Source: Bryoerythrophyllum caledonicum (Eukaryota; Streptophyta; Bryopsida; Pottiales; Pottiaceae). Taken from it: a stretch of DNA of 64,000 nt. Numbering within the stretch: the first letter of the stretch is position 1; each line of letters begins with the position of its first letter. Under the pieces are notes generated by a model, which had not been told where the DNA came from, made no database searches, and was given only the letters and a program-made list of their open reading frames with translations. The translations under genes were made by a program, and so were the position numbers. The stretch covers positions 20,408,462 to 20,472,461 of the forward strand of contig OZ020517.1 in assembly GCA_963971425.1 (NCBI GenBank), written 5' to 3'. Shown here piece after piece: positions 13,560 to 54,965 of the stretch.

Positions 13560-16500
13560 CCAATATTGCCTTGCTCGATAGCACATCTATGCATACTATC
13601 CTTCAGGACCAAAGTTTCTTTGAGTTCGTCAATCAAAACAAACCATGGCAAAATTGTGATATCGTCACAATAGCCGGTAGTCGGAATTTTAGATTCCGCG
13701 AAGGCCGGGCAACAATTGTATTGCCTGGGGGATTCCCCCTCAGATGTATAAGGGCCATGTATGCCCCAAACGCCCTCCGTGGCCTGATCTGCTGCAGGGA
13801 TTTACGGGCAAATAATATCCACGTCTCCACCGCGGTGGAGAACGATGAAGAGACGTTGGAGCTCAGGTAGAGAATGAGGACCCTCGCCACCGCAAATGCG
13901 GGAGCCAACGATCCTTATGAACTCCCTATCAATATAATGGGAAGAACCACATCCCACATTGGAATGATGAAGAGGCCAGTGATGACGTACGAGCACTCAG
14001 GCTTGCAGCTAGAAACTGTGACCTACCTCAGGGACAGACATTGAGAGAAACGACGTTTCTCACAACAATGAATACGGCCGGAATTTGGCACCAACGCCTA
14101 GGCCACCCATGAACGACCATACTGCGGAGAATGCTGCCCACACTAATGGGGCACAACCTGTGCACAAGAGATGCAGAGAAAATTGTTGAGTGTGCCGCAT
14201 GCATACAAGGAAAGCTGATCAGGATATCATCACGATGGAAGCTGCCAACGGAGATGCCCGCGGCACTAGATCGCCTTCAAGGGGACATATGTGGCCCCAT
14301 CAATCCTTCTTTAGGTCAGTTTAAATACTTCATGGTATTGATTGATGCATCAGGTAGGCACGTAGAAGTTTCACATTTAACAACTTAGAATATGGTTTTT
14401 CTGAAACTCCTAGCAATGATTCTCAATATAGGAACCATTTCCCAGAATATCCAATTAGATTCTTACAAATGGATAACGCACAAGAGTTCAGATCTCATAC
14501 GTTCAAGGATTTTTGCACAGCCTTAGGAATAGAACTTACGTACTCAACTCCTTATGAGCACTTGCAAAACAGCCTGGCTGAGGCATTTATAAAGAAAATA
14601 CAACTGGTGACCAGACCCTTATTGTTTCCAAACTCGATTACCACCCACAATAATGGGGTCATGCAATATTGCATGTTGTTTCATTGCTTAGATTACGCCC
14701 CACACTACTGCACACCTAGTCACCACTAGAGTTGATGACTGGATGAACACCGAACGTAGCTCACTTAGAAACCTTCGGTTGCCAAGTCTGGGTACGAGTC
14801 CTCGAGCCTAATGAGAAAACATTAACGGCACATAGACAACAAGCCATATATTTAGGACATGACTCACCAAGTATAATTAGATACGTACTACCAGAAACAG
14901 GAATAATACACAAAGCTCGGTTTGAAAACTGTAGGTTGATAGAAACCACGTTCCCGAGCTTAGCCAACCAAAAACAATACCCGAAACTGAACTTCAAAGC
15001 CATAGAAACATTCACACTAAACCTTGACCAGAGAACAACACTCGCCGAAACTGAAGTTAGAAAACTGATCAACCTTCAGAACCTCGCCGAGAAAATTCCA
15101 GATGGATTCCATTCATGTCCCCGCATGATTAGAAATCCCATCCTAGGAACTCAAAACCAACTAGCACCCGAACTATCCAAGAAAAGAAAAACACAAATAC
15201 GCAGCCTCAACCCTAGGGTCCAACGCACAAAACCAACAACCCTGCACACAGATCGGATAGCCGAAGTAGAACATGTAGAATCACGTGCACAAGAAGAAGC
15301 CTCATTTATATCACAACTCCCCAGTCTAGATCAGGACCCGGCTAGCTTAGAAGAAGCCAAAGCAAGTCTTGAGTGGCCACAATGGGAATCAACAATTCAG
15401 GCTGAATACAACTCCCTCAGAAAACGGGAAGTTTTTGGACCTCTTGTCATGAACTTATCAGCTAGCAAACCTATAGGCCATAAGCTTATTTTCACTAAAA
15501 AGAAAAACGAATAGGGCGAAGTAGTCCGATTTAAAGTCACGCTAGTCGCACAAAGGTTCATCGAGTGGCCATGAGTAGATTTCGAACAAACATACTCACG
15601 AGTAATGAACAGTACCTTATTTAGGTACCTATTAAGCCTAGCTGTACAATTGTCGTTAGAAACAAGACTACTAGACGTAGTCATGGCATACTTGTATGCG
15701 AACTTGGATACCGATATCCATATCCGGCCACCCCCGGATTTCCTACCTGAAGTCACACCCGCGGACCCTGGAAAATATGATGGATTAAAACTATATAAGG
15801 CGTTGTATGGCCTTAAACAAGTAGGAGAATGTGGTATTACCACTTGAAAACATTCCTGCCGGCCCATGGGTTCACAATCCATCAAGCTTTATTGTGCATG
15901 TTCGTCCTTAACGACAAATCAAATTTTGTTATCTTGGCAGTGTATGTCGATGATCCAAACTCGGTCGGGACTAAGGCAGTATGTATGCATGTTGAAAGCC
16001 TAGTAACGAGCATATTTGAGATGAAAATACTGGGACAAACATCTTTCTGCATGGGGCTGTAGATCCAAAAAAATTTGACGGAGCTATCCTACTTCACCAG
16101 GAAACATATGTGAAAAATTCCTCCGCACCTTTACCATGGATCATGCCAACGCACTAGCTGCGCCAATGGTCGGCCAAAGTCGCACAAACGAAGACCCCTA
16201 CCGACCTGGCGAAGAGAAGGAGGAGATTGACAAAACAAAATACCTCGCAGTGGTCGGCGCTCTACTTTACCTCGCCACGCACACCCGACCGGATATCTCA
16301 TTCGCAACAAGTGTCTTGGCGAGACATAGCCAGAAACCAACGATGCGGCACTGGAGCAGCGTGAAGCATCTTCTAAGGTACCTGAGGGGAACCGAAGATA
16401 TGGGACTATATTTAAGAAGAAACACCGAAGTCATCGTATACGCCGATTCCGGCTTCAAGACAGGCAAAGTATCTGGGAAGTCACAAACTGGATACATCTT

Positions 16501-16939
16501 CATGAAGAACGGCGCCCCAACTTCCTGGAGATCAGTCAAACAAACTATGACGGCCACGTCCACGAACCACGTATAGCTATTGGCGTTTCATGAAGCATCC
16601 CGAGAAGCCGTTTGGCTAAGAACGATGTAGAAGACAATCGCAGACCAATGTGGATTAAATTCACGAAAGAAGCTGACAACTATATATGAGGACAATGCAG
16701 CTTGTGTCGAACAAGTATCATCCGGATTTATAAAAGTTGATCGAGTCAAGCACATTAACCCGCGCATATTTGGCTTCACGCAGGACCTTACTGAAACCGG
16801 CCATATTAAAGTCAAGAAGATCGAGTCTACCCGCAACATTGTAGACATACTCACAAAGGCGCTACCAACTTATCAGCACGGAAAACTTATCCACGACGCA
16901 TGCGTGAGAACCATCCAAGACCTGACGACCAAACTGTAA
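13560..16939 (+). pseudogene. Copia pol: protease remnant, integrase, reverse transcriptase, RNase H, broken
   Basis: Domains in order: a protease-like segment with ALLDSTS near 13570; the integrase zinc-binding part with IWHQRLGHP near 14090 and CAACIQG near 14200; and the integrase core with LQGDICGP, FLQMDNAQEF and NSLAEAFI carrying the D, D and E positions. Then come reverse transcriptase with the YVDD active site at 15943-15954 and RNase H with VYADSGF and YEDNAA, ending at TAA 16937-16939. Stops interrupt almost every domain, for example after WP near 15570 and before GEVVRFK near 15514. Normal copia pol encodes all of this as one polyprotein, so this copy cannot be functional. Confidence 0.9.
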
Positions 16940-17049: not shown

Positions 17050-20000
17050 TCGTCTTTCACCAAGCGTCCAAGCTTAATCACCTACACCCAAACACCTCCT
17101 CTAGCTACCTCCAATCCGCCAATCGCGGCAATCCATGCCCCGCGTGCACGTGCAGACTAAATAGCAGCTCCAAGTACTTTGCGTTCTCTTACAATATCCA
17201 CTAGCCACAAAACCGTCGCCCTATCCTACACAAGTGCACAACCACGATCTTGTCAACCATAAGTCGTGCTCTATGTCACCTCTTTGCACTCCCAAATCTA
17301 CTCCGACGCCCCAACACGGGGTGGACATGAAGCGTTTCTCGAGGGTGGTGAAGACTTCAGATCACCAGGCGTCACTAGGACCCAGCGCCTCTGTGAACGT
17401 TACTCTCTCAACCAGCTGCACAATGGTCTTATCAACTACTTCCCGAGTATCTCCCCGCAGCTTATCAAGCCTTGCAGGACATCATCTCCTCGTGCTCGGA
17501 AGCTTGGACCCCGACTGACTCCATTGTTGCTTCAGCTTGTTGTTGTCCCTAGTCCCTAGTGCACACTTTACCGCGTATAAGCACTTCAAGCTCCTATCAC
17601 TGAGTGTTGCATTTAAATACCACCAAATTCAGAGCTTTAAGGTGCACTTCCACAAGAAGCGGATCTGAAGAAGACTTTCTCTTCCACGCTAGTTGTAGAT
17701 GATATGCCAAAGTCAACAGGTTTTCATCCACGTTAGTTTGCCTAGAGTTGCCTTTCGCCACTTCTTTCAAACCTCATCCCTTCTATTTCATCCATTCTTT
17801 CTAAGCATGCTTGGAGTTTTGCAGCAAAACCAACACTCAAATATGGCTCTAAAAACACTCTAAACATAAAAATTTGAAGTTTTTAGGTGTCAATAAACCA
17901 CTAAGAATACACTCATATCTTAGTGGGCATCTTTTTCAAGTAAGAAACAAGTGAAATCCACTTGTAAATGTACAACAAGTCAAGTCAATGCCATTCTTAA
18001 AGAATGATCACATAATAAAAATGAAGATAATGGAGTGCACACACGCGCTCCCTCACTCCATCACAGAGGAGACTCAACTTGAGAAAGATGAGTCTTCTTC
18101 AACTAGATGTGGAGATCTTTTGGACTCCAAGTCCCAAATGAGGTGTCAAAAGACACCACCAAAGCCCTAAAAGTCAAAAGACTCTAATACTAACTCTAAT
18201 TACCAACTAGAGCTAGATTCTAAGCCTTCCTTTGGCCGCTATCCTCCTAGTTAGTTTATAACACATAAACTAACCTCGACAAATCCTCCAACGCGCCGAA
18301 CGTGACTATAGCATAATTCTAAAGGTCTGGTGTGAATAAAAATTATATTTCCACAAAGCTACTACTCTTCCGTATATTTATTTATCCGAAATCTTCATAA
18401 AGTTTCAAAATTCAAGATCAAAATTGAGACTACAGGAACCTGTCAGAAATGGAAAATGTCTTCTCATGGGAAATTGGTCCTTTAGGGATTAACAATCATT
18501 TTAGATAAATCACATGAAGAAAGAGTAAACAAGAATCTAAATTTTTGATTGAGCAACCATGAAAGAAAATTGCTTTTTTCTGCAGCCCCAAATAGCTTTA
18601 ACTAATATTTATGTCAAAATCCTCTCTTGCTAACAACACAAATATTACATTTCAATGTGGAACATTTGCATTTAGTTCAAGATAAGTCCTATATTTTTCT
18701 CATACTCTTTTTCATCCTAAAATATACCTGTTGGCCTTTGCAAAAATGAAAAACCTCATAGTATTGCACTTCAAACTTGTTGCTTTCCTCCAAAAATATA
18801 ATTTTCCTTACCTTTACCTTGCACCTTGCACTCTATTCCCACACTTTTCATTTCATTAAGTTTTAATTTCATATTCCTCATGCCTTTACTTCTAAGAAAC
18901 ATTCAAATTTTATTTGCAAATTATTTAGATTTTCCTTCCAACAACATATTGACATGAAGTCTAGCTTCACTTGGAATGAAAGCAATGTCATATTTTCTAG
19001 CTTTCAATCTAATAAATTCTCTTACACAAATTTGTCTATTTTTAGAATACGTTGAAGCATTTGTCTTCAAACAATCTAAAGCTCTCACTTCCCTATAAAA
19101 TTTCAAATTTGTTCCCTTATAAATAACCTATGTTATATGCCTTTTTATTGCCAAAAACACTTTGAAATGAATTAAAATAGTGTTATCATCATGAGAGATT
19201 TGTCATCTTATCGCTTGGAAGAATCCACCATTATCAAGGCTTCTTTAAGTGGTCACCAAAAGGCCTTTTTCAAGTCCTAATCAATATCCTAGTAAGGCCT
19301 TAATTTTTCCACCCTCTTTGATAATAAAACGTAATAAGAGTGTAGAAAAATAAAGCCAAGCTTTAACTTTACTGTCCTCCACTTCACAAAAAATACACAA
19401 ATGAACATCAATATGGATTGGGTGTTAAATATAAAGGTTTTAGAACTTGTTACATTTTATTACATGACCTCAATCAACAAATTTCAATCAATTTAGGTGT
19501 TGTTATTGAGTGATGGTTTGGGCTATGGGTTTGTATTTCCAAAACCATAATAAATTAAACAAATCAAATGTACATGCTTCAAAGACAAATATATACAATT
19601 GATGGAAGTGCAGTTTTAGGTGATTCCTCTTAGTTCTAAGTGAAGCCAATTGCAACAATGATTGAATTGAAACATAGACTGTATAATTTTCCACACAAGA
19701 AAAAAAGTTGTAGAATCAAATTATTAAAGTATATGTTTTTGATTTATTACATTGATCAATTTCAAAATATATTTGATTAGTTTGAAAGAATAATTTAGAT
19801 TATATTGAAGTATTTGATCATAGGTAAATATAAGAACTTACTCTATATTAGTTTTATAAAATACTAAAAATGAAAATATACAAAAATTACACATATTATG
19901 AAGTAAGTGTATATACTTGTAGGAGATAAAAATTACTATGCATTAAAATTTGATTAATTGTTCTAATTTAAGAACAGTTGAAATTTAATATGACAATATC

Positions 20001-21388
20001 AAATTCAGATTTCTTCAATTATCAAAGTCAGTCAATGAAACATTAATTATTAATTAATTCAAAATTATTGATTTTTGGGGTTGAATTTGAAATCATAGCT
20101 TTTTGTGCACAATTAGGAGATATTTATAAGGGTTTCTATATCGTTAGAAATTTTTCAAAACATTGTCAAATAAAAATTAATTTTATTTTGATCATTTATA
20201 AAATATGTATTTTGAATGAGGTTCATTTATTCCAAAAAAATTAAAATGTCATTGCAAATATATCACATATCACAAATAATAAATCAAATCAAATGATTAA
20301 CTTCAATCAAATCAAATGATTAGCTTCAATCAAATATTTGTTCTTTTGCATAAAATATTTCTTATCCTCTCAAAAGCCAATACCTCTTGTAAATTCAAAG
20401 TAAACATTGATATGGATTTTATGAATATTTCAACTACCATTTTTGAAGAAAAAAAGTGTGAAAACATATAATCTCATTTTTGAGGTTCAAGCTTATAACA
20501 AATATATTTGATGATAACTACCAAGATATTTCTTCATACATGCTTATAAATTGGACAAATGTGATAAATAAAGATTGTGAAATTGTACAATTTAATTTTA
20601 GGTAGGTTTATAATTTATGTGATGTCAAAAATTGAATCAATATATTTACATTTTAGGTTTTTAAAACCTTAAATTCAAAAATCACTTCTACAATGAGATT
20701 CATTCAAAATAAATTTTAAATGATATATCATGGAAAAAAAAGATTAAAAAAGATATATATACTTGGATACAATCAATACCAACAAGGAATTGAATTCAAA
20801 TTTTGGTGGTTTTTACAGATTAATTCAAGTTTTGGATGTTTTCTTTGTTCAATGATTATTGTTTAGTTGGTATTAAATTTTCTTATTCTTTCAACTAAGC
20901 ATTTCAATTTTCGTAGATAAAATTCAATCATTTGTGTGTAAATTTCAAACTTTCCTTTCATTTATTATAAACCAAATGCAAGCACGCTTTCAAAAACAAA
21001 AAAATAAATAAAGTCATCAACACATTTGAAAAAAACCATAAAAGTAAAAATGCTCATTTCCACTCTATAAAACATACTATTTTGTATACCAAAGTTTATC
21101 TTTCTAAATTTAACATAATTGCTTCATTCAAGTATTATTGAACAAACATACTTCTTATCGTAAATATTGTTCTCTCTATATATAAAATATTAATTAAATT
21201 GCTTTGTATATCAATTTTATAAACATTGTCTTTTGAATTTCAATAATCAATATATGTGATTAATTTGATACACTAATATTTATTCAATATACTGATTGCA
21301 TTTTGGTTATTTTCTAGGTATCTTTGTAAAAGATTAACATTTCACACAAATAAGCATTGATTGCATATTTATGTAGAAATTCTACAAG
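17050..21388. other. Gene-free region, becoming extremely AT-rich
   Basis: From 17050 to about 17700 base composition is moderate, with no recognisable protein. From 17700 to 21388 the sequence is dominated by A/T with short homopolymers and only short open frames. I see no RNA gene. The last few hundred bases must hold the promoter of the giant coiled-coil gene. Confidence 0.5.
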
Positions 21389-24300
21389 ATGGAAATTAAA
21401 AATCCATTTTGTTTAGAAGAAAAAGAATTGGTAACATTTTGTCATTCAAATATTATAGATGATGGAGAATATTTGAATTTTGAAGATATAATCTTGAATA
21501 AAAGTAATGACAAGACTTCAAACAAACGACGTCTTATCATAACAACAACATCAAGTGATCCAGTAAGTTCAAATTTTTCTTTGTATTTCTATAAGTAATC
21601 AAAACACAAATGTGTGTTGATAATTATGTAAATTTTTAGCACATCAAAACATTCATGAATATTTTATCTTTATTTTGAGTTCTAACTAAAATAATTATGC
21701 AAATACTCATCTCATTCATTTAGTCTTTATCATAGGTATTAATTGAATTCCGACCTAATTTATCGAAACCTTTGATTGATTCATTAGTGTCTAATTCTAT
21801 TCAATGTGATATCATTGAAAAAGAATGTGGAGATTCTTTACAAACTATACAACAATTAAAAAGGGAATTGGAGAAAGAAAAAGATGAAAGAGAAAAATAT
21901 GCTTTAGCATTAACAAAGTTTAGTGATATGGAAGAACAACTTGAAATGGAAAAAAACATGCGTAGTCAAGAATGCAAAAAATACGATGGAGTGGTATTGG
22001 ACTTGCAAAGTCAAGTTGAAAAACAAGCTGAAGAAATTAAAAGGCTATGGACTGAAAATCTTGCAATTGAAAGCGATGGTATAAAGTCAATTGAGAAGAA
22101 ACAACAAGAAGTTGTACTAGAAACAAATCAATGCATCTTGGGATTGGAATGTCAATTAGCCGAAGAATCAAAACAACATAAAATAACATATACAAATCAA
22201 GAATCAAAGTGTAATCATCTTCAATCAAAAATTAACGAATTGGAGATTAATCAAAATGTACTATTACATGAGGGTGATGATCTAAAATTAAGGATTCAAG
22301 AATTGGAAAACAAAAATGTAAGACCACAGACACCAACTTCATTTAATTGCATAAGTGTAATAATGATAAATTTAATAAATATATTACGTGATAATAATAA
22401 CAAATGGATGAGTATTTTTTGTATATTAATTTTATCAATGAAGTATTATAATTACCACCCAATTGATCATTATAATAGTTTGACTCATATAAAATGGAAT
22501 TATGTTATAGTTGCAATATCAAGAAGAAATGATGTTATCAACATTTAGAAAAGATGGTGATGATAAACTACTTGATTATGCAAAGTTGCAAAAAGATAAT
22601 GATATCTTGAAAGCAGAACTTGAAAAAGTTAATAACAATTACAATCGTACATCACATAAGTTGCGTCATAATGTTTCAAAAAGACGTAGATTAGAGGTAT
22701 GAACTGCAAAACTTCAACCCCATTTTATTCAAGATGGTGTATATTTTATAGTTTTCTTTATTGCTTCATCTTTTGTTGTTTAATACATTATTTAAGAATT
22801 ATTTTCATATTATACAATCTTATCAAATTATTCAGTTTTTTATTTTAGGCCGAAAGCGAAGGCGAGAAACAAGAACGTTTGAACTTGGCAGCAGCATTAT
22901 ATGAATTGGAAAACGAAATAGAAGCAACTGTTTCAGTCATTAATTCATTACAATCTACCACTTGTGAAAGCATTTTCTCATTGACGAGTGACTTGGAAAA
23001 ATTTCAAGTAATATATTTAAGACCATTTTTAAAATACTATTTTACTATCATCCCTAAAGGAATAAGATTTGTAATACAATTTATACATATGATTAAGTTT
23101 TTTGGTTTTGTTCTTTTTTTTTTAACAAATCTTATCATAGTAGATTTTTAATTTTGAGATATTGATCATTTGAATTTAGATGGAATTGGAGAAAATTGCG
23201 GATTCAAATGATTCCAAGCTTAAGTCTTTAATATGTCATAACAATGATATTATTAAGTCCATTGACATCAGTGAACAAAATCTCAATAAAAAAATTGAAA
23301 CAATGGACTCAACTATGAATTCATTCAAAGGTATACCAAATACAAAGCCTATTATTTTAAAAGTAACACATGAAAGTAAAAAACTTTTAAATGAAATTTC
23401 TAATGTAAAAGTTTCAATGGGCCAAGTATTAAAAATTCAAAAATCTCAAGCTCGTGCAATTAGAAAAGATGTGGCAGTAAAATTAAACACCATTGAAGAT
23501 GAAAAAGAGGCATTTTTTCAAAAATCAAAGGTTCTTGATGGAGAGAATAAAGGTCTTGAAGAAGAAAATTGTAAATTACGCCATGAAGTATCTACATTAA
23601 AAGTTGAAAAATCTAAATTTACTATGGAAATAAAAGGTTTAGATAAAGAAATTGAAGACTTACAAGATAATGCAAAGAACCTTCGTGAAGAAAATAGAAA
23701 GCTTTTGAAAGAAGCCAAATGGAAATCAGTTGGAAAGCAAGGAGGATATCAAGAATCTCTTCTTGTTCAAGAATGGGAAAAAAGATTAAAGAAGTTAGAA
23801 GTTGAATATGAAGTATTACGTCATGTTAAAAAGGTATTTAAGTATACAATGTGACAACTTATTTTCAAAAAAAAATTGTTTAAAGAAATTAATCTATTTT
23901 ATGATGGAAATGATGGTGATATACCATTATAATTATCATCATCTTAAATATATAGAAGTTGTAATAGTATAATTACATAATTTTCTTATAATATTGATAG
24001 AGAACTGATTCACAAAATCATAAACATATATATTATCATGAAATGTAGAATATAATATTCTTTAATTTTATATGTATATATATATATAATAGATAAATAG
24101 TAGAATATATCTTACTTGATTGTTTAGCTGAGATATTAACCATGTAGTACTTGTATATTTTATGATAATTAACTCAATTATATGTTTTATTAATATAGAA
24201 TGGTAAAATAATTTTTTTATTTAAAAAACCCAAACTATACAAGATTTTTAAATTCATTAAACTTGTGAAAATTTTACATTTTATATGATAATGAGTGTTA

Positions 24301-27300
24301 AATATGTAATTTTTATATAGGATTTGGTGAAAGATAAACGTCGTTTAGAAGAGGAATTGAATAAGGCAATGGAGAAGGGTTACAAAGGACTAGTGGGAAG
24401 TGAAGATCAAAAGCACGAAAGTGAATTATACAACATGACCCAAGAAAGAAACAAATTACGTAAAATAAAAATCACTTTAGCTATAGAAAATGTTTCGCTT
24501 AAAGAATCAGTAGTTGAATTAAATAAAAAATTTGATGCACTTCAAACTAAATGTGAATGTGAAAGCTTACCAGAATGGAAAGAAAAGGTACAAAAATTAG
24601 AGATAGATTGTGAAGATTGGAAAGAAAAGGTACACAAATTTGAGAAAGATTGTGAAGATTTGCAAGATTGGAAAAACAAGGCAAAGACACTTGAGATTGA
24701 ATGTAAAGAATTGCGTGACAATCAAATGAAAGTTGAAGGACATGAAATTGAATGCGTTTGTAAGAAGAAATCCACATCAAATGAACATGAAGAGGAATGC
24801 AAAGTAACTAATGAAGTTGTTCAAGACAATGGACAAGAGTACAATGATATTAGGAATGATGAATTTAACTCTTTGAAAGAAGAGTGCAAAAATTTACGTG
24901 AATGTAAACTTGATCTTACAACCGAATGTCGATCGCTTCAAGAAAAGATAGACTTTCTTAATGAAGAATGCAACATCCTTCGTGAATTCAAAGAAAAGAT
25001 TGAAAAAACAAATGAATATAGTGGTTGTAATGCAAACAAAGTACAAGCCGAATCTTTTGAATGTAATGACAATGTGAAAGAAAAAGGTACAACTTTAGAC
25101 AATTCAAATTTGGCGGTTGTTGAAAACTGCAACATCCAAGAGTTATTGGAGACAATTGCCAATCTAAAAGACAAAAATGTGAAGTTATGTGAAAATCATC
25201 AAGAAGCACTTGATAAACAATGGAATGTCCTTCAAGTAGATTTAAAAGCTTTTGAAGGAAAAATCGAAGAATTAGAAAGTGAATGTGAAAGCATTCGGAG
25301 AGATCATTTATCAAGTATGGTTGAGAATTCGGAACTTGCTAGAGATAAAGACAGATTATTAGCCATGTATAATGAACAAAAGTATAATCATGAAATACTA
25401 GAAACTGCACATGAGTGCCTACAACAGAATTATGAACAAAAAGAAGCTCAATACATTAAAGAAAGAAATAATTTTCATGCTTCTATTGAAAAAATCAATA
25501 GGCAAGTGTTGGAGCTAGAAACAAGTTTTTGTGAAAGGTTACATCAACAAGAAAATAATTATGCATCGTGTTTGCAATTAAAAACCATAATTAATGGATT
25601 GGACACCATAACTTTGACACGCCAAGAGTATGAAATACTTTTGGCAGAGAAAACCATAATGCTTCAAGAACGAGATAATACCCACAAAAAACTATGCAAT
25701 GTAGAGGTTCAAAATATTCAACTTAGCGCAAGTATTGAGTGTTTAAAACAAGAGGTATCATGTAGCAAACAAGGCCATGATGAAAAAGAAATTGGTGCAG
25801 AAGTATTGCTTGCTCAAGATGTTCTAAATCTTCAATCTATGGTAGATTCATTGGAAGAGGATTTGAAAAACGCAAATTTTGAAAAAAGCGGGATTATTGA
25901 TGTTAATATGTCTTTGAAGAAAGAACTCAATGAAGTCCATGAAGTTCTTTCACATCGTGAATATGAAAATCAAAAACTAAATGATACATTAGAAGCTCTT
26001 CAAAAGAGATCATCTTTAGAACAAATCCATTCCGCTGCTTCTTCATTAAAAGAACAACTTAGCAAAGTATCTAAAGAAAAAGATTCTATCAAAGAACAAG
26101 TTAATAAAGTGATTAAAGAAAAAGAACAGCTTGCTAATGTTGCAAATGAAAGAGATAATGTTATTTTTCTCCTAAAAGATGAAATTAAAAAATTGGAAAA
26201 AGAAAGAGAAGAATCATATTCTTCTTTGAAAAATCAATCACAACAAATGGTAGAAGAAGATACAATGGTGACGTCATCCAATTTCAAAACAATTGTCATG
26301 GAAAGAGATAACTTAAAAGAAGATTTAGTTGTTGTTCAAGACCAGTTAGAGTCTTTAAATACAAAAATGATAGATGCGGAGAATGATAAAACAAATAAAT
26401 CAAAATTGTGGCAAGATAAATACGAGAAATTTGAAGAGAAATGTAAAAAAATTGAGATTGAATTACACAATGCAAAGGAAGCATTGACCATGACAAAGGA
26501 AGTGATGCAAAAAGACATAGAACAAGCACTAAAAGAGAAACATGCCTATGAATTGATGGCAAACAAAGAGAAACAATCCTTGATTGACAAACTTGACAAT
26601 GCATCTAAAGAAATAAACATCATTGTAGAGGAAAAAAGTAAAGTAGTAGAAAAATGTAAAGAAAAGTTATCTTTGATGCAAATAGAAAATGAAGAATTAA
26701 GGGCTTTAGTGAAAGAAAAAGACAAAGTTACTTCAACAAAATATGAATTAGTGAATGGCCAATCAAATTGTGACAATATATTGAACATTCAAGGTATACA
26801 AATTAATTCTATGGAAAAAGATGCCAAAGAAATAGAATTGAATGAAATCAAGGTTAAATATGATATACTTGATGATGAAAATTCTATTTTGTTGCAAGAG
26901 AAAGAACGCCTCTTTGAGGAGAATAATAATCTCTTGGAAGAATTATCATTGTTTAAAAAAAATAATGAAATCAAGCTTGGAAAGAAAGGAAAACGTCAAT
27001 GGAATTTCAAAGGATATAAAGAAGAAATGAACATTTTATTACAAGAGAAGGAACATTTGCTTACTTTAGAGGAGTCTTATAAGCAACAGATTGTTGATCT
27101 TGAAGAAAAATGCACAGAAATACATTGTTTTTTTATTAATGAAAAAGCGTCACTATTGGAAAATCATGTTATTGAGATTACTTTGTTGAAAAAGGAAAAG
27201 GAAGAAATTGAGAATAATCATGCTATGGAGTTTACTCTGTTGAAAAAGGAAAAGGAAGAAATTGAGAATAATCATGCTATGGAGATTACTTTGGTGAAAA

Positions 27301-30255
27301 AGGAAAAGGAAGAAATTGAAAATAAGCATGTTATAGAGATTACTTTGTTGAAAAAGGAAAAGGAAGAAATTGAGAATAATCATGTTATTGAGATTACTTT
27401 GTTGAAAAAGGAAAAGGAAGATATTGAGAATAAACTTGAAGGATATCTAGTGCAACATGGTCGATCAATGAATGATCTTCAAAGCGAACTTACTACAAAT
27501 AAAGAGGATTTACTTTTGGAACAAAGAGAATGTGCATTAGTGGTTCAAGACTATTTAAAATTAAAAGAAGAAAATTTGATGTTAATTCAAATGAAAGATA
27601 TAATTTCAAAAGAAAAGATTGATTTAATCGCAAAGATTGAAGATGTGGAAAAAGAAAATGAAGAATCAAAAAATCAGTTAAAAGACGTAAACAATCAATT
27701 GTCATTAATTGAAAGCAAAGTACATGAAGTATTAAGTGAAAAAGAAAAACTAGTTGCTTTAGAATTGTGTTCAAGACAACAATTGGACACGCAAATAGTT
27801 GCTCAAGAACAATTGCAAAGTAGGTTAGAAGGAGAAATGATTAAACTCAATCAAGCAAAAGAAACTCTAATCCGAGAAAACGACAAGCTTTTTAAAGAAT
27901 GCGAGCAACATGCTCAATTACAAAATGAAGTTTTATCTTTATTGAAAGCAAAAGAAACTTCTTTTGAAGAATATAACAATCTTTCTAAAGAAATGATGAT
28001 GTTAAAAAGTGAAAAAGAATCACTTGATGAAAAGTATATCACAACCATGTCGGAAAAAAATCAAATTCTTGCTTCCCAACTTTCTCAACAAGATAGAGTT
28101 AAAATTTTCAAAAAAAATTTATTATCTCTTGAAGAAAACATCATTGATCTCAACCAAAGAAATAAAGAATTAGAAGCTGAATTGCAAAATACTAAAATGA
28201 CAAAAATCATGCAAGATCAACATACATACACTTCTACTTTATTTGATACCAATGAAGTAGCCATTTTTTGCAATATGGATGAAGACTATGAAAATCAAGT
28301 GAATGATAAATTTAATGAAGAAGATGAAGAACCAAATTCAATATTACCATATGTAGAATCCTTAAAGAAACAATTTGATTTCCTCAAACAACAACAAGAT
28401 GAGACAATAAAAGAAAGAGATACTCTAGCATTATCTTTAAAAGAGAACGTACAAGCTAATAATAATATTGTTTCTTATCAAACGGAAATTGAAACATTGA
28501 AGCAAAAACTGCATGTATTTAATCAACAATATGCTCAGCTTTTGCAAGAAAGAGACAACATATTACAAGAGAATACAACTCTACAACAAAATATTATTGA
28601 TCTTCAAGCTAAAATATCTAGTTTGAAGGTTGAAGGTGATATTATGAATTCTTCTACGGAATCCGAGGTAACAAAGCATGACGTTTCAAAAGAAAAGCTT
28701 CAAAAACACCAAATTGTTAGCTCGATGAAGACACTGAAAGAACAACAAATTAATCTATCCAAAGAAAATATGGAGATTGCTTTTGAAAATGAAGTTCTTA
28801 TAAAAGAGAGGGATAGCTTGCTTGTATATATTTCTTCATTGAAAAACCAACATGAAACTAAAGATACAACAATTTTAGAAGCATCTTTAAAAAGGAAGTA
28901 TGAAGAACTTGTCCAAAGTGTAGATGCTTTTTGTCAAAGTGAAGAAAGCTATGATGCCTTTAAAGTAAAGCTTGATGATTTGAAGAAAACAACCATTTCT
29001 ATCATTGAAAATTTTACAATAAGTGCAAAAGAAAAAGAAAAATTGGTTATTGAGATATCATCCCTCAAAAAAGAATGCCAAAAACTTCACATGACTCTTG
29101 TTAGTTCGGAAAAAGATAAAGAAACATTAATGAAAAAAATATTGGATTCACGTTCGACATTTGATCGTTTTGTTGGAGAAATTAGTCATTTGCAAAGGGA
29201 ACTGGCTGATAAAGAAATGAAACTTAGTCATACTATTGGTGAAAAAGAAAATGCTAATATCCAAATTGCAGATCTACAAATACATCTGAACAATCAACAA
29301 CGAATACAACATTTGCCAATGCCATATACAATGGAGAAAGTTCAAACTTTAGAAGCTCAAAATAGATGTTTGAGAATGGAAAAGGCAAGTTCAAAACTAA
29401 GATGAATTATTCCTTGAAAACAATTTACTTGATAAGGAAATAAAAAATATATTCCCTTCTATTTTGATAAGTATGTATTTTTTTTAAATTAATAAGGAAA
29501 TACCAAGATAATTCATTCATTTTACTTGATTTGATAACTCTTGTATTATCAATGGTAGAAATTAAAATATTCAAATCTAATTTTAAAATTAAAAATTTAG
29601 CATTTAAGAAATTACAATGAATAACTTTGACTCTGTTCTATTTCTCAGGATGTTTTAGAAGAATGCTTAAAGAAACGCTCAGAACTTAATGTAAGGCACT
29701 GTCTTTTTTAGAATCAATCCATATATGTGTGTCTGTATGTGTATATATATACTTTTGTACATAATTAATGTCATAAAATACAAATCAAAACATTAGTTGC
29801 AGTTTTGCTATGTTTTCTTACAAACTTTATGTATGGTTAATCTTAATTGGTTTTTCAAGTGAAAGCAATATACTTTGATAATTTTTCATCTTCTTAGAAC
29901 TTAACATCAAGATTCTTCTATGCAGGAAAGTCATTTATTCACCCAACACATGCCATCAATGACAAATTTCAATTGCATAAACCAACAACCTCCTCCTTCT
30001 CAACATCATCTTCATACTTCTTCGGTAAGTCGATACTATAAATCTTCTAAATCATTTTTCACAAAATTAAAATAGGTCTAATGACAATATCATGTTGTAA
30101 ATATGTCATCAATGATTTTGCTAATATCATTTCCAAATAATTGCTAATAGAATGTCTATGTTACATGGTAGCAGTTGTATGGTTCTAGATCTAATGCTCT
30201 TGGAAGGCCTCCAACTACCTTTCTTCCTATGCTTCATCAACAATGGCCTATGTAG
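21389..30255 (+). CDS. Giant coiled-coil protein, about 2346 residues, unknown function
   Basis: Nine exons: 21389-21562, 21736-22317, 22511-22696, 22849-23007, 23180-23833, 24321-29384, 29649-29690, 29926-30024 and 30175-30255. All eight introns are phase 0; seven are GT-AG, and intron 6 starts with GC in a good AG|GCAAGT context. Exon 6 alone is 5064 nt. The start is the first ATG of the first open exon (MEIKNPFCLEE...). Apart from about 60 N-terminal and about 60 C-terminal residues (the latter rich in Pro, Gln and His, ending QQWPM), the whole product is Glu/Lys/Gln/Asn-rich heptad sequence, that is, one very long coiled coil. There is no motor, membrane segment or signal peptide. Proteins of this build usually act as cytoskeletal, nuclear or organelle-tethering scaffolds; which applies here cannot be read from the sequence. 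Codon use is extremely A/T-rich. Exon 4 matches exon 2 of the gene at 1.8 kb. Confidence 0.8.
24570..24720 (+). repeat. Internal coiled-coil repeat with DWKEKV units
   Basis: Near the start of the giant exon, three units of about 17-20 residues resemble each other: EWKEKVQKLEIDCE, DWKEKVHKFEKDCE and DWKNKAKTLEIECKE. The conserved Trp, Leu/Phe and Cys positions differ from the rest of the coiled coil and could form a local structural motif. Confidence 0.6.
27162..27431 (+). repeat. In-frame tandem repeat, 54 bp x 5
   Basis: Five near-identical 54-bp units encode the 18-residue unit NHVIEITLLKKEKEEIEN, at about residues 1533-1622 of the giant protein. Variants are HAMEF, HAMEI and KHVIEI. Eighteen residues equal one heptad plus one hendecad, which keeps the coiled-coil stripe in register. 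High DNA identity shows recent expansion. Confidence 0.9.
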
Positions 30256-32794
30256 CAATGAGAATTTGAACCCTTTAAAGATGATAGGCGGCTATGGTTG
30301 GCTATGAAGACAACTAAATTGTACACAACCATCGTTCAATTTAGCCGGCAAAAACCAAATCGCAAAAGGCGAGGATTGCGGAGCTGATTCAGACAACCCT
30401 GCGCCAAGACATTTGCTGCTACTCTTTGACAATAGCTATGGCAGTTTAAATTGGGCATACTCGTCCTTAAACGATTAATTGTAACCACTTTTATATTTGA
30501 AGGCCCACTAAGTCACCTTTGAAAATACCTCGGATTATGTGAATCCGTGTTTTGTAATATACATGTGAATATTCCAATATGGAAGTATATATTGCAATTT
30601 ACAACAGGTATTCAAAGTTGCATGTAGACAATCATAGGTATAAAAAAACTTTTATGTATTTTGTTCCCCTAGTCATTATTTGATAAATTGGTTCTATTGC
30701 TCATCATTTGGGTATATCATGATTATAAGAAACTTCATTATTTTTAACAAGATACCATGATTTCTATTGTAATAAAAGATGTAATATAATCCATTGAATG
30801 TTGCATTTTGATAAAAGCAGAACTCAACATCTACATCAACGGATATGCTATAACCTGGTCAAAATTCAAGATCTATCAATCAATTGAAGAAAAATTAATT
30901 CTAGGGTATTAATCATTGGCTTTTGTACGTTACAATTAGAATGAATCAATAGAAAATATTTTGTATTTATCATTCAATTTTTTTCAATCAATCATTTCAT
31001 TTTGTATTTAAATGCAAATAATTTCCTTGATGCTAGGTACTTCAATTTTACAATGGTATAAAACTTCTTAATTTATGGAAATTGGCATTGATGGCACATA
31101 TTGGATTATTTATAATTCTATGGTACACTTGTAGATATTCGTCCCAATGGGGCAATGGGAATCTCTCGGAGACCCTGTCTTTGAGATACCATGTCTCTAA
31201 AATACCATGTCTCTGAAATGCCATGTCTCTGAGATACCAAGTCATAGGGATACCTTGACCCAATATCCAACCTAGATATTGGCCACTGGACGGGTACGTC
31301 ATCATTTTCTTTTCTTTAAAAAGACGGTAGCCTTAGGTTATTGTGTTGTTTTCATTATATAGAATTGTTGGCTTTTGTATTTTGATTGTATTTTGATACA
31401 ATCAAATGGCGAGTAGGACATTGGTGGCTAAAATACACCCACAAAATTGGCATTTGGTGGTTTTGACAGAGATAATTTGAAACATGTCTTAAGCCCGAAA
31501 ACATAAAAGAGTGTTGTACAATTTCCATTGTAATTACAAGCTAAAACATAATTCTAAATAGATTGTGAAATAAAGTTACACCTTGTTTTTGATAAAACTT
31601 TGTTGTTGTATTAAAATGTTGTTTATGTAAAATCTATTAAAAGTAAGTCTATTAACTTAACATTTTTTAATTTATAGAACTTTAACGGCTTATAACTTCA
31701 TTATCATTCCACTAGATATCTTACAATTATGAAATTCATGTTTTTCATTTGCTATTTGTTATAAAATATACATCAGACTTAAGATTACAATTGAAAGACC
31801 ACCAAGCTTTTAAAAATACAATGACTACTTGAAGTGAACAATTCATAATTTGTAAAAGTCAAGAGAAGGAATGTCTCATTGAAATTTTGGGTGACTTTAC
31901 AAGTATTAAGTCCAATGTCTCTCAAATTTCATTTACATTACACTATCAGCTCCCTTTATAGAAGCATATGATACAACAACAATTCTATTGTAAGAGGCAA
32001 CTTGGGTTAGAACAAATCTTCTCTCTTTACAACAACAATACTTCTTGTTACTGTAACAGGCATTACCCACCCTTTTCATTGTAACAACCACTCAAAATAG
32101 CAGCCTTTATATGCCTTTATCTGTAGGAGACATAACAAACAACGCTTAGCCAATTAAGACATAATATGTGGCAGTTGTTTGTCCTTTCATGCAGACTACA
32201 TGATTATTTACATGGTTTTTCATCTTACATGTTTTCAACCAAACCAACCCAATTGCAAAACAAAAAAACGTTTTTCACCTTGGAACATCTTGGATACCAA
32301 GCTTTCCAAGCACGGTAAGAACTCCATGAAAAATTGCTAAATTCTGAAGACACTACCATAAACTCCACACCAAAATCTCAAGATTTATAACTATCATGGG
32401 TTCCCGCATTCAGCAGCAGATCAAAATCATCAACTCAGTTCACAGAACACCGTGAGAGACATGCGAATTAGCAGAGGAATCTTAACATTTCTGTGCTGTA
32501 ACACACTGCTAGTAGATATCCTCAGCATGGTAGGAGACTTAAAATTTGATCTAGTAACCGTCTATGTTTTCTCTGATCTCTGGTGATCAGAGAAGTTCTG
32601 ACATTCGAGCTAAGTAACAACCAGTCTTTATTGCCAACTCACCAGAAGCTTTCACATGTGGTCTTCTGTGAAGCGTCCCCTCTCGTGATGCAGATCCAGC
32701 CTCCCTCGCCGTGGGTTTAGTGACACAAAATGAAACACGCCAAAGTTTTAATAAGCGCACAAAAAAAGGGACTTAAGATCAAACGCACCATATT
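30256..32794. other. 3' flank of the giant gene and AT-rich spacer
   Basis: No coding frame is convincing. It contains the 16-bp minisatellite at 31178-31241. The stretch from 32650 to 32794 should include the 3' UTR of the minus-strand glycosyltransferase. Confidence 0.5.
31178..31241. repeat. Minisatellite, 16-bp unit, four copies
   Basis: Four head-to-tail units of the form TCTCTGARATACCATG at 31178, 31194, 31210 and 31226, each with one or two differences. Confidence 0.85.
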
Positions 32795-34144
32795 CTAAAG
32801 AGCTGCCTTCATTGAAGCTACCTTGTGGCGCATTCCCTCAATGGTGAGGTCGAATGCATCACTCGTTAATCCGGCTGCAGCAGGATGTCTGTACACCACG
32901 TTGGGAATGATGGAGATAAGCTTCTCGCGCATCATACGCACCTGAGATGGCCTGATCTGCATCAAGATATCCTCGACAACGCACGAGCCATTCATTATAC
33001 AAGCTTCGGGAATGAAAACAGAGTACGCATCAAGCTCAGGAGGAAGGTGCCAGGTGTACTGCGTCTCTGCCGTGTCCTTGTGGAAGAGGACAGGAATGCA
33101 GCCTGAAACGACAGAATCTATTGTTGATCGGCGGGTCGCTGTGTCGCCCCGCGGCTGTAAGCAAAATTCTGCATGAAGGAGACTCTCGTAAATAGGCTCC
33201 GGGTTGTGACTGCACTTGATTGAAGCGCAGTCCAGCCTCGAGCACTTGGAGGAAGCATTGACGCATTGCTGTGATAAGATTTCTCGAATGCTTCCCACCT
33301 GCTGCGGCCTCAGAGCACCCGAGAATGAAAACAATGCAGTGCGTTTTTCTTCCCGCACTCTCTGGATCCAGAGCTGTAGGGATCCTGGGCTTGCAGGATG
33401 GAAGCCCACTGGATAAGGAATGGCTTGCTCGTTCGGCCGCCATGGCCGACGCTCCAGCACCATGAACGTCACATGCTTCATGGCCTCCAAATCGAACAAG
33501 GAGGTTCCCCAGTCTCTGTTACCTTCCTCCGGGATGGCGAAATCCCAGGCCGTCCTGCCAGCGATCATGAAATGGTCGCGGCCCCCGTACCGCCTCCATG
33601 GCTCAGTCGCATTCTGAAGCAACCAGGCCAGAAGCTCCAGCCCTTGTCGATGCAACCTCTTCGTCTCGTTGTAGAGAAATGACAGCGCGTCCAGTCCTGC
33701 GAAGAAAGGAATAAAATATATGTCGGCCTCTGCTGGTGTGTCCGTCAAGCAGGGATACGACTGCATCCGCTCGTGAAAGATGACCTCCAGCATGTACGCA
33801 TCGGTGCGATACCAGTCGTCTCCAAGGACGGCAGTGCTAGCGTTCACCAGCTCTCCAAATCCGTAATTCCGGTAATGCTTGCAGAACTTAATCCACGGCA
33901 CCAATCCGCCATCGCAGTACTCGAGAAGAGCAGTGTTGAAGCCGCGTGGAATGTTATACATGTGCACTCTCCTTCCCTGACAAGCTTCCGACCGAAGCAT
34001 CAGCTGGTGAGAAGTGAGCGGGAACTCCTGTTGAAATGGCTTTCCAGGGCTGGGACACGCCCACCGCGTCGCCAGTACGATGAGAAACAATGCGCAGCAT
34101 TTAATCGCCAGCTTCTTACTCGCAGGCGGCGGCATCTTGTGCAT
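32795..34144 (-). CDS. GT47 exostosin-family glycosyltransferase, MUR3/XLT2-like
   Basis: A single exon of 449 codons from an ATG in a good context (AAAAATGC). Residues about 11-28 form one hydrophobic segment after a basic N-terminus, giving a type II Golgi membrane protein. The luminal domain has the exostosin pattern: RRVHMYNIPRGFN (58-70), EVIFHERMQSYPCLT (120-134), IYFIPFFAGLDAL (142-154), GGRDHFMIAGRTAWDF (187-202), AIPYPVGFHP (241-250) and the donor-site-like stretch FCLQPRGDTATRRS (327-340), followed by SVVSGCIPVLFH. This combination is characteristic of the plant MUR3/XLT2 clade, whose members add galactose or related sugars from UDP-sugars to xyloglucan side chains. The exact sugar cannot be predicted. 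Length is at the short end for the clade because the stem is brief. Many family members are intronless in plants. Confidence 0.92.
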   Translation of the reverse strand: MHKMPPPASKKLAIKCCALFLIVLATRWACPSPGKPFQQEFPLTSHQLMLRSEACQGRRVHMYNIPRGFNTALLEYCDGGLVPWIKFCKHYRNYGFGELVNASTAVLGDDWYRTDAYMLEVIFHERMQSYPCLTDTPAEADIYFIPFFAGLDALSFLYNETKRLHRQGLELLAWLLQNATEPWRRYGGRDHFMIAGRTAWDFAIPEEGNRDWGTSLFDLEAMKHVTFMVLERRPWRPNEQAIPYPVGFHPASPGSLQLWIQRVREEKRTALFSFSGALRPQQVGSIREILSQQCVNASSKCSRLDCASIKCSHNPEPIYESLLHAEFCLQPRGDTATRRSTIDSVVSGCIPVLFHKDTAETQYTWHLPPELDAYSVFIPEACIMNGSCVVEDILMQIRPSQVRMMREKLISIIPNVVYRHPAAAGLTSDAFDLTIEGMRHKVASMKAAL

Positions 34145-35538
34145 TTTTGGAGTAAACTTTGAACTATCCTTGCAATCACCAAATGGCTCTCAGCTTTTCA
34201 TACGTATCTCATGTGCTCAACGACAGGAAGTAGTAGGTGGTGGAAAAGTAAGCAACACGTGTTGTATACAAAGACTAGAGGAGCACAATGTGAACAACAA
34301 ACCTACAATGCAGTCTACCAATCACGTCCTACGATCTAAGAACTGACAGCCAATTCCTGTGCAATGACTAACATAAAAATCCATACAATGTCACTACCTC
34401 TATCATTATATTACCTCACTAACTGCAGTAAGACGCTGTTATCAAATGCATCTCGAATCCTCAAATATCTGCATCTGGAGAAACAACACGTTACCTCGTT
34501 GGCCAACCAGAACCGACTCTGGAGCTCGCATCCCTGCCACCGCCTACCTCGTACGTATTGAACGGGCTCATCAATCCAAACCTCCTACTCCGCGCGTCCA
34601 TCCGCGTCCTCCAAACAACCGCATCAGCAGCTGGCTTACTTCAACACGCGGTCAATTACATCGACCGCTTCTCACAAATAACCAATCACGCATCCGCATA
34701 AATCACTCCAACCTCGCCCTAGCTCATCTCACACCAATAGACAATCACGCATCTGCATCAATCGGTCAAACCTCGCCGTAATTACAACAACAAAAAAACT
34801 AATCCTTCCTGCACCTCCTCTCCATTCAATCACCTCACTTCTCAGTTCAAACCAAACCCGCTGCAACCTAGATAGAAAACAGAAACGACGACGCCGCGAA
34901 CATCCGTCACCCGAACTTACAAAAAAACCGATGCGCTCCGAAGAAAAACTCTCTTTCTCAGCTCCAAAAACGCTATCCACTCGCGCTCTCACCGATCACC
35001 GCTCTTCCAGCTCTCCCGTCCTCCTCAGAGCATGAAACGAAACGAGACCAAGTGGAAAGGAGAGACGGAAACTCGCGTGGCACCACCGAGAAGCTCACGC
35101 CCTCGCGGTCCGCCTGCGCCATGGCGAGATTGCTGTGGAGATGGCGGGCACATACAGCATGACCACCATAGCCCCCGCAAGCGCTGTCAAGGCAAAATGA
35201 CGCACAGGCCCTCCAAGAAATTGAGCTTTCAAGCTTGGCACATCCCCGCCCGGTGCCAACGAGGCGCGTCCCCTGCCATGTCACCATTCCGGTGTGCCAT
35301 GTCAGCGTGCCCTCGGCATGGAATTGGTGGTGCCATGTGGGACTCAGTCGTCACTTCCAACTCCTTTAGGATCCGAGACTATTTGGGTTTGTTGATATTG
35401 GCATCTAAAATTGATTTGGACGAAAGACATTGTAAATTACAAATCTTTCCACAATGTTCAAATTTAAAGTAGCATTATAATTGATGTTCCAAAATCAAGT
35501 TGTTTGGAATAATTACTACTATCATAAATTAACATTCA
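34145..35538. other. Intergenic region with a GC-richer island, no firm gene
   Basis: The first part is presumably the promoter of the glycosyltransferase on the minus strand. From about 34560 to 35350 the GC content rises and open frames appear on both strands. On the minus strand a 60-residue frame ending near 35100 encodes a hydrophobic stretch (FALTALAGAMVVMLYVPAI), which might be a degraded exon of a membrane protein. It has no credible start or partner exons, so I do not call it. Confidence 0.4.
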
Positions 35539-43260: not shown

Positions 43261-46200
43261 TCAGGTCTCAGGCTGCAACATGAGATGGGGAGGCTGGGAA
43301 GTGAGGAGTAGTTGTTGTCTCACCTTGAGATCCTCCAACTGAGCCGTGACGTGCATCATGGTGGGGCGCCGGCGCGCCTCAGTCGCGGTGCACGCGACCG
43401 CGAGCATGAGAAAGATGCCAAGGAGCTCGGTGGAGCCAGTGCGCGCGACGACGGGGTCGTAGGCGTCCATGTGGCGGTTGGCCTTGGCGAGCGCCTTCAC
43501 CCACGCGACGAGGTTCATGCCGCTCTCCATGCCGTGGAACGCAGGGCCGATGGGGCGCTTCCCGGACGCGAGCTCCAGCATCACCACGCCGAAGCTGTAC
43601 ACGTCCCCCTTGGCGGTGGCGCGCCAGGTCTCGCCGTACTCGGGCGGGACGTACCCCGGCGTGCCGGCCACCACGGTGCTCACGTGCGACATGTGGAGCT
43701 CCATGAGGCGCGCCAGCCCGAAGTCCGTGAGGCAGCTCTCGAAATTCTCGTCCAGGAGGATGTTGCTGGTTTTCATGTCGCGGTGGATGATGAGCGGCTC
43801 GCACTGGTGGTGCAGAAACGCCAGTCCCTGCGCCGTGCCGGCGGCGATGCGGAGGCGGAGCGGCCAGGTGAGCACCGCCGCGCGCTCCTCGCTCTCGTAG
43901 AGCCAGTCGTCCAAGCTGCCGTTGCTGAGGCACTTGTACACCAGGAGGCGCTCCCGGGAGCGGCAGCAGTAGCCCAGCAAGGGCACCAGATTCGGGTGCT
44001 GGATCACGCCCAGCGTCTCCATCTCAGCGCGAAACTCCCGGTCGCCCTGCGCGCCGTCCTGCACCAGCTTCTTGATCGCCACGGTCGTTCCGTCCGCCAG
44101 CTTCGCCTTGTACACCATCCCGAACCCGCCGTCGCCGATGATCTTCGCGGAGCTGAAATTGTCGGTGGCCAGCACGAGATCCGAGTACGTTAGCGCCTTG
44201 AGCGACCCCCCGAAGCTCTTGAGCGGGATATAGCTCTGGCTCATGGGCGACGATGCCGCGTCGTAGACAGCATCCGTATCCATGAACACCGCCGCCTGCT
44301 TTGTGTGCAGCCGCCGGCACTTGAGAAACAGCAGGAACACGGATCCGCCCAGGAGAAACAGCAGGATGGCACCGAACACGCCGACGAGAGTGCACGTCAG
44401 GACGAGATTCTTGGAGGATCCGGTCACCGTCGACTCCGGCGGCACGCGCTGCGGCGCGGAGCTGTTCACACAGGACTTCATCTCCTGCGGGCCGGGAATC
44501 TGCGTCGCGTCCGGGATCCGGCACAGCTTGAAGTCGTTCACCCACGCGCTCGGGTCAAAGTTCCGGAACGACGCGTTGTACGGCACCGGGCCCTCCAGGT
44601 CAGGATTATAAGAGAAGTTGTACGTCCACAGGAAGCTCAGCTTGTTGAGCGACGCGGGGAGCGCGCCGGAGAGGTGGTTGTACGAGAGCTGCAGGCTCTG
44701 CAGCGTCGGCGCCAGGCTCTCGAAGATGTCAGGGATGGAACCGTTGATGCGGTTGTGGCGCACGTCGATGTTGTAGAACGGGACGCCGCGGAAGGTGGGC
44801 GGGATGGCGCCCGAGAGGTCGTTGTGCGAGAGCAGGATGCACGAGAGGTTGGAGGCGAGCGAGGCCGGCTCCGGAATCGGCCCCGTGAGGCTGTTGTTGG
44901 AGAGCTCCCAGTAGGCCAACGACACCCTCTTCCCCTTCAAGATGTCCAGCCACTGGCCCCTGCACTGGTTGTGCTTCAGATTCTTCGCCATGTTCTCGAA
45001 CGGCGGATCCTCGCCTGGGATCCAGCTCAACGCCAACGAGCACTCACCGATATCGATCGGTGGAAAGTCGTTCGCTTCTCGGATGGCGGCGAACATGGCT
45101 CCTGCGTCCACGCCTAGAGAGAAGAAGTTGCTCGGGATGGCGCCTGAGAGCTCGTTGTTGCGGAGATTGAGCCAGAGCAAGCTGCGGCACTGGGTCATCT
45201 CAGGAGGAATCGCGCCGCTGAGGTGATTCTCCGCGAGTTGCAGCCACAGGAGGCACTGGAGGTTGCCGAGCGAGGCCGGAAGCGCGCCGCGGAGCTGGTT
45301 CACGGAGAGATCCAGCCCTTCCAAGGCTGTCAAGCTCCCGAACGATCCCGGAATGGAGCCTGTGAGATGGTTTCTAGCTAATCTCAGGAACCGGAGCGCG
45401 GTCAGATTCCCGAGCTCCGGCGGAATCTCGCCGGATAAGCTGTTGTTGCCCACGTCCAGGTGCACGAGCGCCGGCGCGTACGCGAGCTCCACCGGGATTG
45501 CACCCGAGAACCTGTTGGAGTGCGCCACGAAGAATCGGAGGCTCGTCACCTGGTGTAACCATCTCGGAAGCGTCCCAGAGAGCAAGTTCCAGCTCACGTC
45601 CATCGCTGAGAGGCTCTGGCATCCCGTGAGCGTTTCCGGGAGAGCGCCGGTGATGCCGTTCTGGCTCAACCCCAACGACTGGAGCTGCTGCAGCCGCCCC
45701 AGCTCCGAAGGTAGGGCTCCAGTGAGCAAATTGCTCTGGAAGTTCACGAAGGAGAGACGCGTGCAGCTTCCTAACGCTGCCGGGATGGCGCCACTGAACC
45801 TGTTGAAGGAGAGGTCGAGGTAGGTGAGCTCAGCGCACCCGATTGCGTCCAGGACGTCGGATAAGCTGCCTGTCAGCTCGTTCAGGTACACGTCCAGCTT
45901 CTGCAGGTTCGTCAAACGTTGGACTTGGCCCTGAAACAACTCCCCGGTGAAGTTGTTGTCCCTGAGAAGAATCTCTTCAATCATGCGGCAGCTCCAGAGC
46001 TGCGGCGGCACCGGGCCCTCCAGATGGTTCCCTGACACGTCCAAGGACTCCAAGCTCAGGCAGAAGGCGAACATCTCTCCTGGGAGCCTCCCTTCAAATC
46101 CGTTAAAGGATAGGTCTAACGACTGCAACAAATTTTCCATCATTGATATCAGCATGTGAGATAAATCAGCAACTTGAAACCACCACAAGAGAAGAAGATA

Positions 46201-48756: not shown

Positions 48757-48985
48757 TTTCTTGTAATAGCCAATGGAATTACAATTTCAACCCAAGTGGT
48801 TTTATATTTTTCCGATGAAATGTGAACTAGTTGTGAATTTACAAAGTGTGCTCTCATCCTTAGTTGTTGGCCGCCATAAGCGCCGACTGAAACTAAAGGG
48901 TCATGACTGATAGCAAAACCTCTTATTTGAAGTTGAATGGGTCCTAAATGGATGGAAGTGGATTGAGTATTTCCCAAATTTATAG
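48757..48985. repeat. Dispersed repeat family 1, copy at 48.8 kb
   Basis: Similar over about 230 bp to 56556-56785: both contain ATTTCAACCCAAGTG, a TGAATGTGAAYTA-type stretch, AAGGGAT or AAGGGTCATGA, TAGCAAA-CCTC and ACTAAATGGGT-like blocks in the same order. The following sequence (GGTTACCTTG) is shared too. The nature of the element is unknown. Confidence 0.6.
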
Positions 48986-49704: not shown

Positions 49705-49719
49705 TTTTGTTCCAAAACC

Positions 49720-54684: not shown

Positions 54685-54965
<281 letters not shown>

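Follow-up and report, generated by a model that had tools for sequence, protein, structure and literature searches.

Long coiled-coil spacers, among them giantin and other golgins, NuMA and Bld10/CEP135, have a heptad coil of great length flanked by short ends that are not coil, and as a class they are described as freer in sequence than in length (PMC5082667). Transposons of the moss Physcomitrium patens carry about 80% CG and about 80% CHG methylation (H being A, C or T), CHG methylation being the stronger silencer (PMC9994747), and gene-body methylation is given as reduced or absent in bryophytes (PMC10952607). Here we analyse a gene at positions 21389–30255 of a 64,000-nucleotide window from the moss Bryoerythrophyllum caledonicum (assembly GCA_963971425.1, contig OZ020517.1, positions 20,408,462 to 20,472,461 of the forward strand), whose product resembles these spacers in this architecture. 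The reading that we prefer, with a probability of roughly 0.45, is that the gene encodes a coiled-coil spacer or tether of roughly 325 nm, has restricted expression and has carried transposon-like methylation for a long time.

As an earlier note on this DNA had proposed, nine exons join cleanly in phase 0 into one frame of 2346 codons closed by a single terminal stop, and all nine exon lengths are divisible by three. The introns measure 150–487 bases, seven of them being GT-AG and one GC-AG (intron 6, donor AAG|GCAAGT). The exons and the in-frame repeats of exon 6, all on the plus strand, are as follows.

Exon 1, 21389–21562, plus strand: 58 codons; opens with the start ATG and encodes an N-terminus outside the coil, without heptad signal in residues 1–60.
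Exon 2, 21736–22317, plus strand: 194 codons; start of the coil.
Exon 3, 22511–22696, plus strand: 62 codons.
Exon 4, 22849–23007, plus strand: 53 codons.
Exon 5, 23180–23833, plus strand: 218 codons.
Exon 6, 24321–29384, plus strand: 1688 codons; main coiled-coil rod, with the GC donor.
Exon 7, 29649–29690, plus strand: 14 codons.
Exon 8, 29926–30024, plus strand: 33 codons; Pro/His/Gln-rich, non-coil tail.
Exon 9, 30175–30255, plus strand: 26 codons and the stop; the tail ends in LHQQWPM.
Tandem duplications in exon 6, 24572–24714, plus strand: in frame, 42 and 51 bp (14 and 17 residues).
Tandem array in exon 6, 27155–27433, plus strand: in frame, 54-bp (18-residue) unit, 5.2 copies.

The 5-kb exon claimed earlier is indeed open: exon 6 (5064 bases) holds no stop in its own frame compared with 61–215 in each of the other five, and the chance of an open frame of this length is about 10^-71 under an independent-base model. 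The tandem periods of 42, 51 and 54 bases are all multiples of three, and exon 6 also contains one weak 22-base array with a period that is not. Five units of the 54-bp array differ at proportions of 0.11 of synonymous sites (pS) and 0.098 of nonsynonymous sites (pN). The locus is very probably a real protein-coding gene.

A 3.5-residue hydrophobic period, measured as windowed power rather than with a dedicated coil predictor, beats all 200 shuffles in each of the regions 61–585, 1001–1500, 1501–1900 and 1901–2260; by this measure heptad periodicity extends over most of the protein, as in the long spacers. A strict one-register heptad test passes 4.9% of 28-residue windows compared with 0.65% in a shuffle. 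The ends are short and distinct, as had been noted, and the windowed test finds no 3.5-residue periodicity in residues 1–60 or 2261–2346. The expected lack of a motor and of a membrane anchor is also borne out: four kinesin and myosin motor motifs have no match in the six frames of the window, although one interrupted by an intron would escape, Pfam finds no motor domain in residues 1–585, exon 6 or the C-terminus, and the highest 19-residue Kyte-Doolittle mean is 0.83, so that no membrane helix is present by that measure. A motor hidden upstream was considered and dropped, as the motif search found none there.

The gene lies within a compositional island whose base content and dinucleotide record carry the second part of the argument.

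AT-rich island, 18500–32500, no strand: about 28% GC; CpG-depleted, with uneven CAG/CTG depletion; putative old CG- and CHG-methylated domain.

The island compares with a mean of 41% GC in 85 two-kilobase windows, 3 of which fall under 30%; the sample, a small one not drawn strictly at random, comes from 17 ten-kilobase stretches, two flanking the window and 15 from 11 large contigs at chosen places. The earlier description of an AT-rich, repeat-filled block is thus right as to composition and weakly true as to repeats: all seven direct-repeat families found within 17–33 kb lie inside coding exons 5 and 6, and a few short non-coding tandem arrays are also present in the block. The gene's frames of at least 200 codons have third-position GC contents (GC3) of 0.19, 0.19 and 0.23, the three lowest among 51 open frames of that length, many of them not genes, taken from the window and from 23 further loci; the next value is 0.34. 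GC at fourfold sites is 0.17, close to that of the gene's own introns (0.21), and reaches 0.85, 0.86 and 0.54 in the neighbouring pentatricopeptide repeat (PPR), leucine-rich repeat (LRR) kinase and GT47 frames.

Observed/expected (o/e) CpG is lowest in the introns (0.10) and upstream flank (0.16) and stands at 0.46 in the downstream flank and 0.50 in the coding sequence; the gene-rich 1–8 kb and the LRR-kinase region have 0.9–1.0. CAG/CTG (CWG) is at 0.30–0.36 in the coding sequence and in the upstream flank. Taken in two-kilobase steps, the island ranges over 0.11–0.55 for CpG and 0.18–0.57 for CWG; the 85 sampled windows have medians of 0.66 and 0.73 and minima of 0.22 and 0.13. The loss is visible at silent sites: among the third positions of two-fold codons, C occupies 17 of the 174 that precede G, 3 of the 30 in CHG context and 95 of the 329 in CHH, a retention of 10% before G versus 29% in CHH, and the CG deficit was reached in none of 5000 permutations within amino acids. 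CpG across codon junctions occurs 26 times versus 53.7 in synonymous shuffles, and glutamine ends in G (CAG) in 6 of 151 codons versus 128 of 629 for lysine and glutamate together (P ~1e-7). Strong CG-versus-CHH contrast is common to sampled transposon-like frames (for example at loci L006, L018, L012 and L013, labelled so from our own reading of translations and not from a search); of the neighbours, GT47 and the LRR kinase lack it and the PPR frame has a slight one (0.74 versus 0.85). Depletion of CG and CWG recurs in other AT-rich stretches of the window (8–12 kb and 48–60 kb). From its sequence record, the low GC looks like old damage by CG and CHG methylation and not like foreign DNA, a reading new here, and the island including the gene would have been methylated for long in transposon-like fashion.

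Within this decay the reading frame has stayed open, which the earlier note took as a sign of selection; for the frame this stands, and at the level of residues the record is mixed. CpG inside arginine codons is kept (31 seen, 31.5 expected, o/e 0.98) while at the two silent-change phases it is down to 0.42 and 0.45 (equal decay, P ~4e-5). The corresponding phases are at 0.96, 1.09 and 1.02 in the PPR frame, 0.90, 0.79 and 0.91 in GT47 and 0.65, 1.26 and 1.02 in the LRR kinase, none of them with an arginine-codon excess in the gene's direction except slightly GT47. Our first idea was that CpG retention alone marks selection on residues; the CHG test weakened it, for there CWG over codon positions 2-3-1, where change replaces a residue, is down to an o/e of 0.29 (21 seen), on a par with the 0.28 and 0.32 of the other phases. 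Before G-starting codons NCA occurs 14 times versus 43 expected and NCT 7 times versus 35; NCG is not short there (8 versus 5.7, a small count), which argues against a mere amino-acid preference. Constraint thus looks mixed, with CGN arginine codons kept and CHG-context replacement sites eroded, and the frame seems to have been held as much residue detail drifted under CHG-type decay. Such a combination fits a spacer coil, in which sequence can diverge while length matters (PMC5082667), and also fits a recent loss of constraint.

On the preferred reading, two chains would dimerise into a rod. A coiled coil rises by 0.1485 nm per residue, and about 2200 residues would span about 325 nm; the short non-coil ends, of about 60 and about 85 residues, would bind partners and make the dimer a molecular spacer or tether. 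Action as a tether or spacer is, in our judgement, somewhat better than an even bet, the dimerisation, rod length and tethering being deduced from the coil and its ends. The silent-site damage suggests that in the inherited cell lineage the gene has been under methylation of the transposon kind for long, and methylation of this type would silence it in most tissues, so that expression is probably limited to one stage or cell type. The first location to consider would be the scaffold of the sperm motility apparatus, because mosses have motile flagellate sperm (PMC5424408) and the assembly contains SAS-6, at two places, the better one scoring 90.3 bits. This role is a guess, and a doubtful one; the sites listed in the earlier note (cytoskeleton, nucleus, meiotic axis or organelle) are likewise candidates.

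Several observations weigh against one part or another of this reading. The windows that pass the strict heptad test cover just 23% of the protein, which points to a coil that is imperfect or changes register often, and the earlier description of the protein as purely coiled-coil is supported, as 3.5-residue periodicity, in four of the five regions between the ends, the signal being marginal in residues 586–1000 (2.31 versus a shuffle maximum of 2.28). CAG/CTG shows no clear depletion in the introns (0.79/0.70) or downstream flank (0.85/0.66), and island CpG, low as it is, lies inside the range of the 85 windows save for one value of 0.11 below their minimum. The silent CHG deficit was reached in 400 of 5000 permutations and is not significant alone; in the exon-2 frame, which includes some intron, the CG effect is nearly absent (0.17 versus 0.22). 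The CG contrast also occurs in frames that are possibly ordinary genes, for example two at L015 with GC3 of about 0.6, so that the pattern alone is no proof of transposon-type methylation. As for sperm, the better SAS-6 locus has an ordinary 42% GC, and nothing points directly from the gene to that cell type. Should it by now be silent everywhere, the gene would be a pseudogene in the making.

The earlier note placed the protein in no recognisable family, and as far as Pfam, NCBIfam and the Protein Data Bank (PDB) reach this is so. Exon 6 matches no Pfam family at E up to 1, and residues 1–585 have four matches, all below cut-off and none of them NAB. The ends, which the note had singled out for profile searches, gave no Pfam family for residues 1–89 and one match for the C-terminal 107 residues, PSK at E 0.066, an identity rejected because it lies below its cut-off. 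The strongest NCBIfam match is SMC_prok_B to exon 6 (E 1.6e-7, 29.5 bits versus a cut-off of 567); SMC, Rad50, Filament and Rab11-FIP3 were set aside as generic coil matches far under their curated cut-offs. Pfam finds no GRIP domain, the C-terminal mark of golgins, in exon 6 or the C-terminal 107 residues and no NAB domain, the N-terminal mark of NET proteins, in residues 1–89 or 1–585; TPR_MLP1_2 (PF07926) does not match exon 6, and this profile also finds nothing genome-wide and may miss a moss NUA exon by exon. The PDB holds no significant relative, the best being a bacterial M protein coil (E 0.022), and no significant match to either end, the parts that are conserved in Bld10/CEP135, a protein of the cartwheel. 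Exon 6 has no match in viral contigs, and seven pattern hits in prokaryote genomes were confirmed in none of the seven cases. Literature on plant Bld10, moss sperm coil proteins, Sphagnum, moss codon usage and methylated moss genes offered nothing usable for membership. As these libraries hold no plant proteomes, the absence of a family is a provisional verdict, and other moss genomes may well contain a match.

Second copies were sought in the 437-Mb assembly (894 contigs) with exons 1–6 as query and scoring of the best candidates alone, and none was found; the best other matches are at chance level, with E 0.59 and three internal stops for residues 1–585 and E 0.17 for exon 6. For exons 1–6 this search thus gave no sign of the multiple copies typical of a transposon. 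Within 17–33 kb no direct repeats bracket the gene, and the sole inverted pair around the whole of it is 25 nucleotides at 76%. The assembly's LEAFY DNA-binding domain aligns with PDB chain 4bhk, which we take to be the P. patens LEAFY protein, at 238.9 bits (100 of 106 residues identical, ~94%), the next chain reaching 173.6 bits, which marks the assembly as that of a moss.

These results bear on what else the gene might be. A vegetative scaffold, that is a coil of the interphase or mitotic cytoskeleton, the Golgi or the nuclear pore, of golgin, NUA/TPR or CIP1 type and diverged past recognition, would sit well with the report that plant-specific long coiled-coil clusters are mostly of unknown function and that proteins with high coil coverage are lost once coils are masked (PMC1322226); restricted expression is, moreover, not compelled by a CG contrast that some ordinary-looking frames share. 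The blank Pfam result for exon 6, the missing matches to GRIP, NAB and, with a profile that may not see moss NUA, TPR_MLP1_2, and the lack of a membrane-like segment speak against it, and transposon-type methylation, if rightly deduced, would be unusual in a housekeeping gene; we consider this alternative rather unlikely. A kinesin or myosin derivative that has kept the stalk alone, CENP-E-like for instance, would account for a long, stalk-like coil, but with no motor motif in the window and no similar coil found elsewhere in the genome among the candidates scored it seems highly improbable.

Recent arrival from an AT-rich donor would explain the extreme GC3 values and the failure to find a second copy. 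Against it stand the introns, the CG and CWG depletion shared with 8–12 kb and 48–60 kb and the CG contrast shared with transposon-like frames, which mean that such composition can arise within this genome, and we rate a foreign origin as very unlikely. A silenced gene or pseudogene in the making, its first stop not yet acquired, has two points in its favour: CHG replacement sites are depleted like the other phases, and pN is close to pS among the repeat units; yet 7038 coding bases are still open in a decayed AT-rich block and the arginine-codon CpG has been kept beyond the silent phases, and we hold this outcome to be unlikely.

Under the preferred reading of a long-methylated spacer gene, a further step is conceivable: methylation-driven C-to-T change may have rewritten the protein itself, selection holding just frame, coil and length and the residues being set largely by epigenetic state. 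Ser, Thr, Ala and Pro codons ending in A or T would then have been purged before G-starting codons. We regard this as possible, though with more doubt than belief. Should the methylation reading be true, the locus would be a natural test of gene survival in silenced chromatin and would show how far mutation can rewrite a coil with length and frame kept. To our knowledge the composition of the moss sperm motility apparatus is poorly known, and the gene offers a large candidate for such a scaffold. As matters stand it is best described as an orphan whose mutational record is informative.

The surroundings are of mixed character. Upstream lie the PPR protein frame (5242–6975; 577 codons, GC3 0.84) and open frames that by eye resemble pieces of a Ty1/copia polyprotein (14747–16937), with a Pfam match to SH3_retrovirus in 14747–15514. 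The next recognised gene downstream is the GT47 exostosin-type glycosyltransferase frame (32795–34189, minus strand; 464 codons), followed by the LRR receptor-kinase frame (43261–46212; 983 codons), whose GC3 of 0.85 contrasts with 0.23 in the coiled-coil gene 13 kb off. The second AT-rich stretch (48000–60000) has 36% GC and CG and CWG depletion like the gene's island; within it, a perfect (CAA)n tract about 94 units long (54685–54965) may be very unstable or may stem from the assembly. Elsewhere, a coil-containing open frame at L026:1183–2115 (contig C3; 310 codons, GC3 0.34) keeps silent C at 0.06 before G versus 0.38 in CHH and may be a second decayed gene or part of a transposon.

Compared with giantin, the other golgins, NuMA and Bld10/CEP135, the gene, taken here from one species, lacks a recognisable end domain or sequence match. 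With plant CIP1, NUA/TPR, NMCP/CRWN, NET and FPP it shares plant origin, a long coil and the lack of a motor; compared through Pfam profiles, it differs in having no NAB match and, with the profile that may not see moss NUA, no TPR_MLP1_2 match. With transposon-type methylated moss DNA it shares the loss of CG, the loss of CAG/CTG in coding frame and upstream flank and the loss of silent C before G, but unlike such DNA it is intact, is built of nine exons, has no second copy that we found and is not a repeat.

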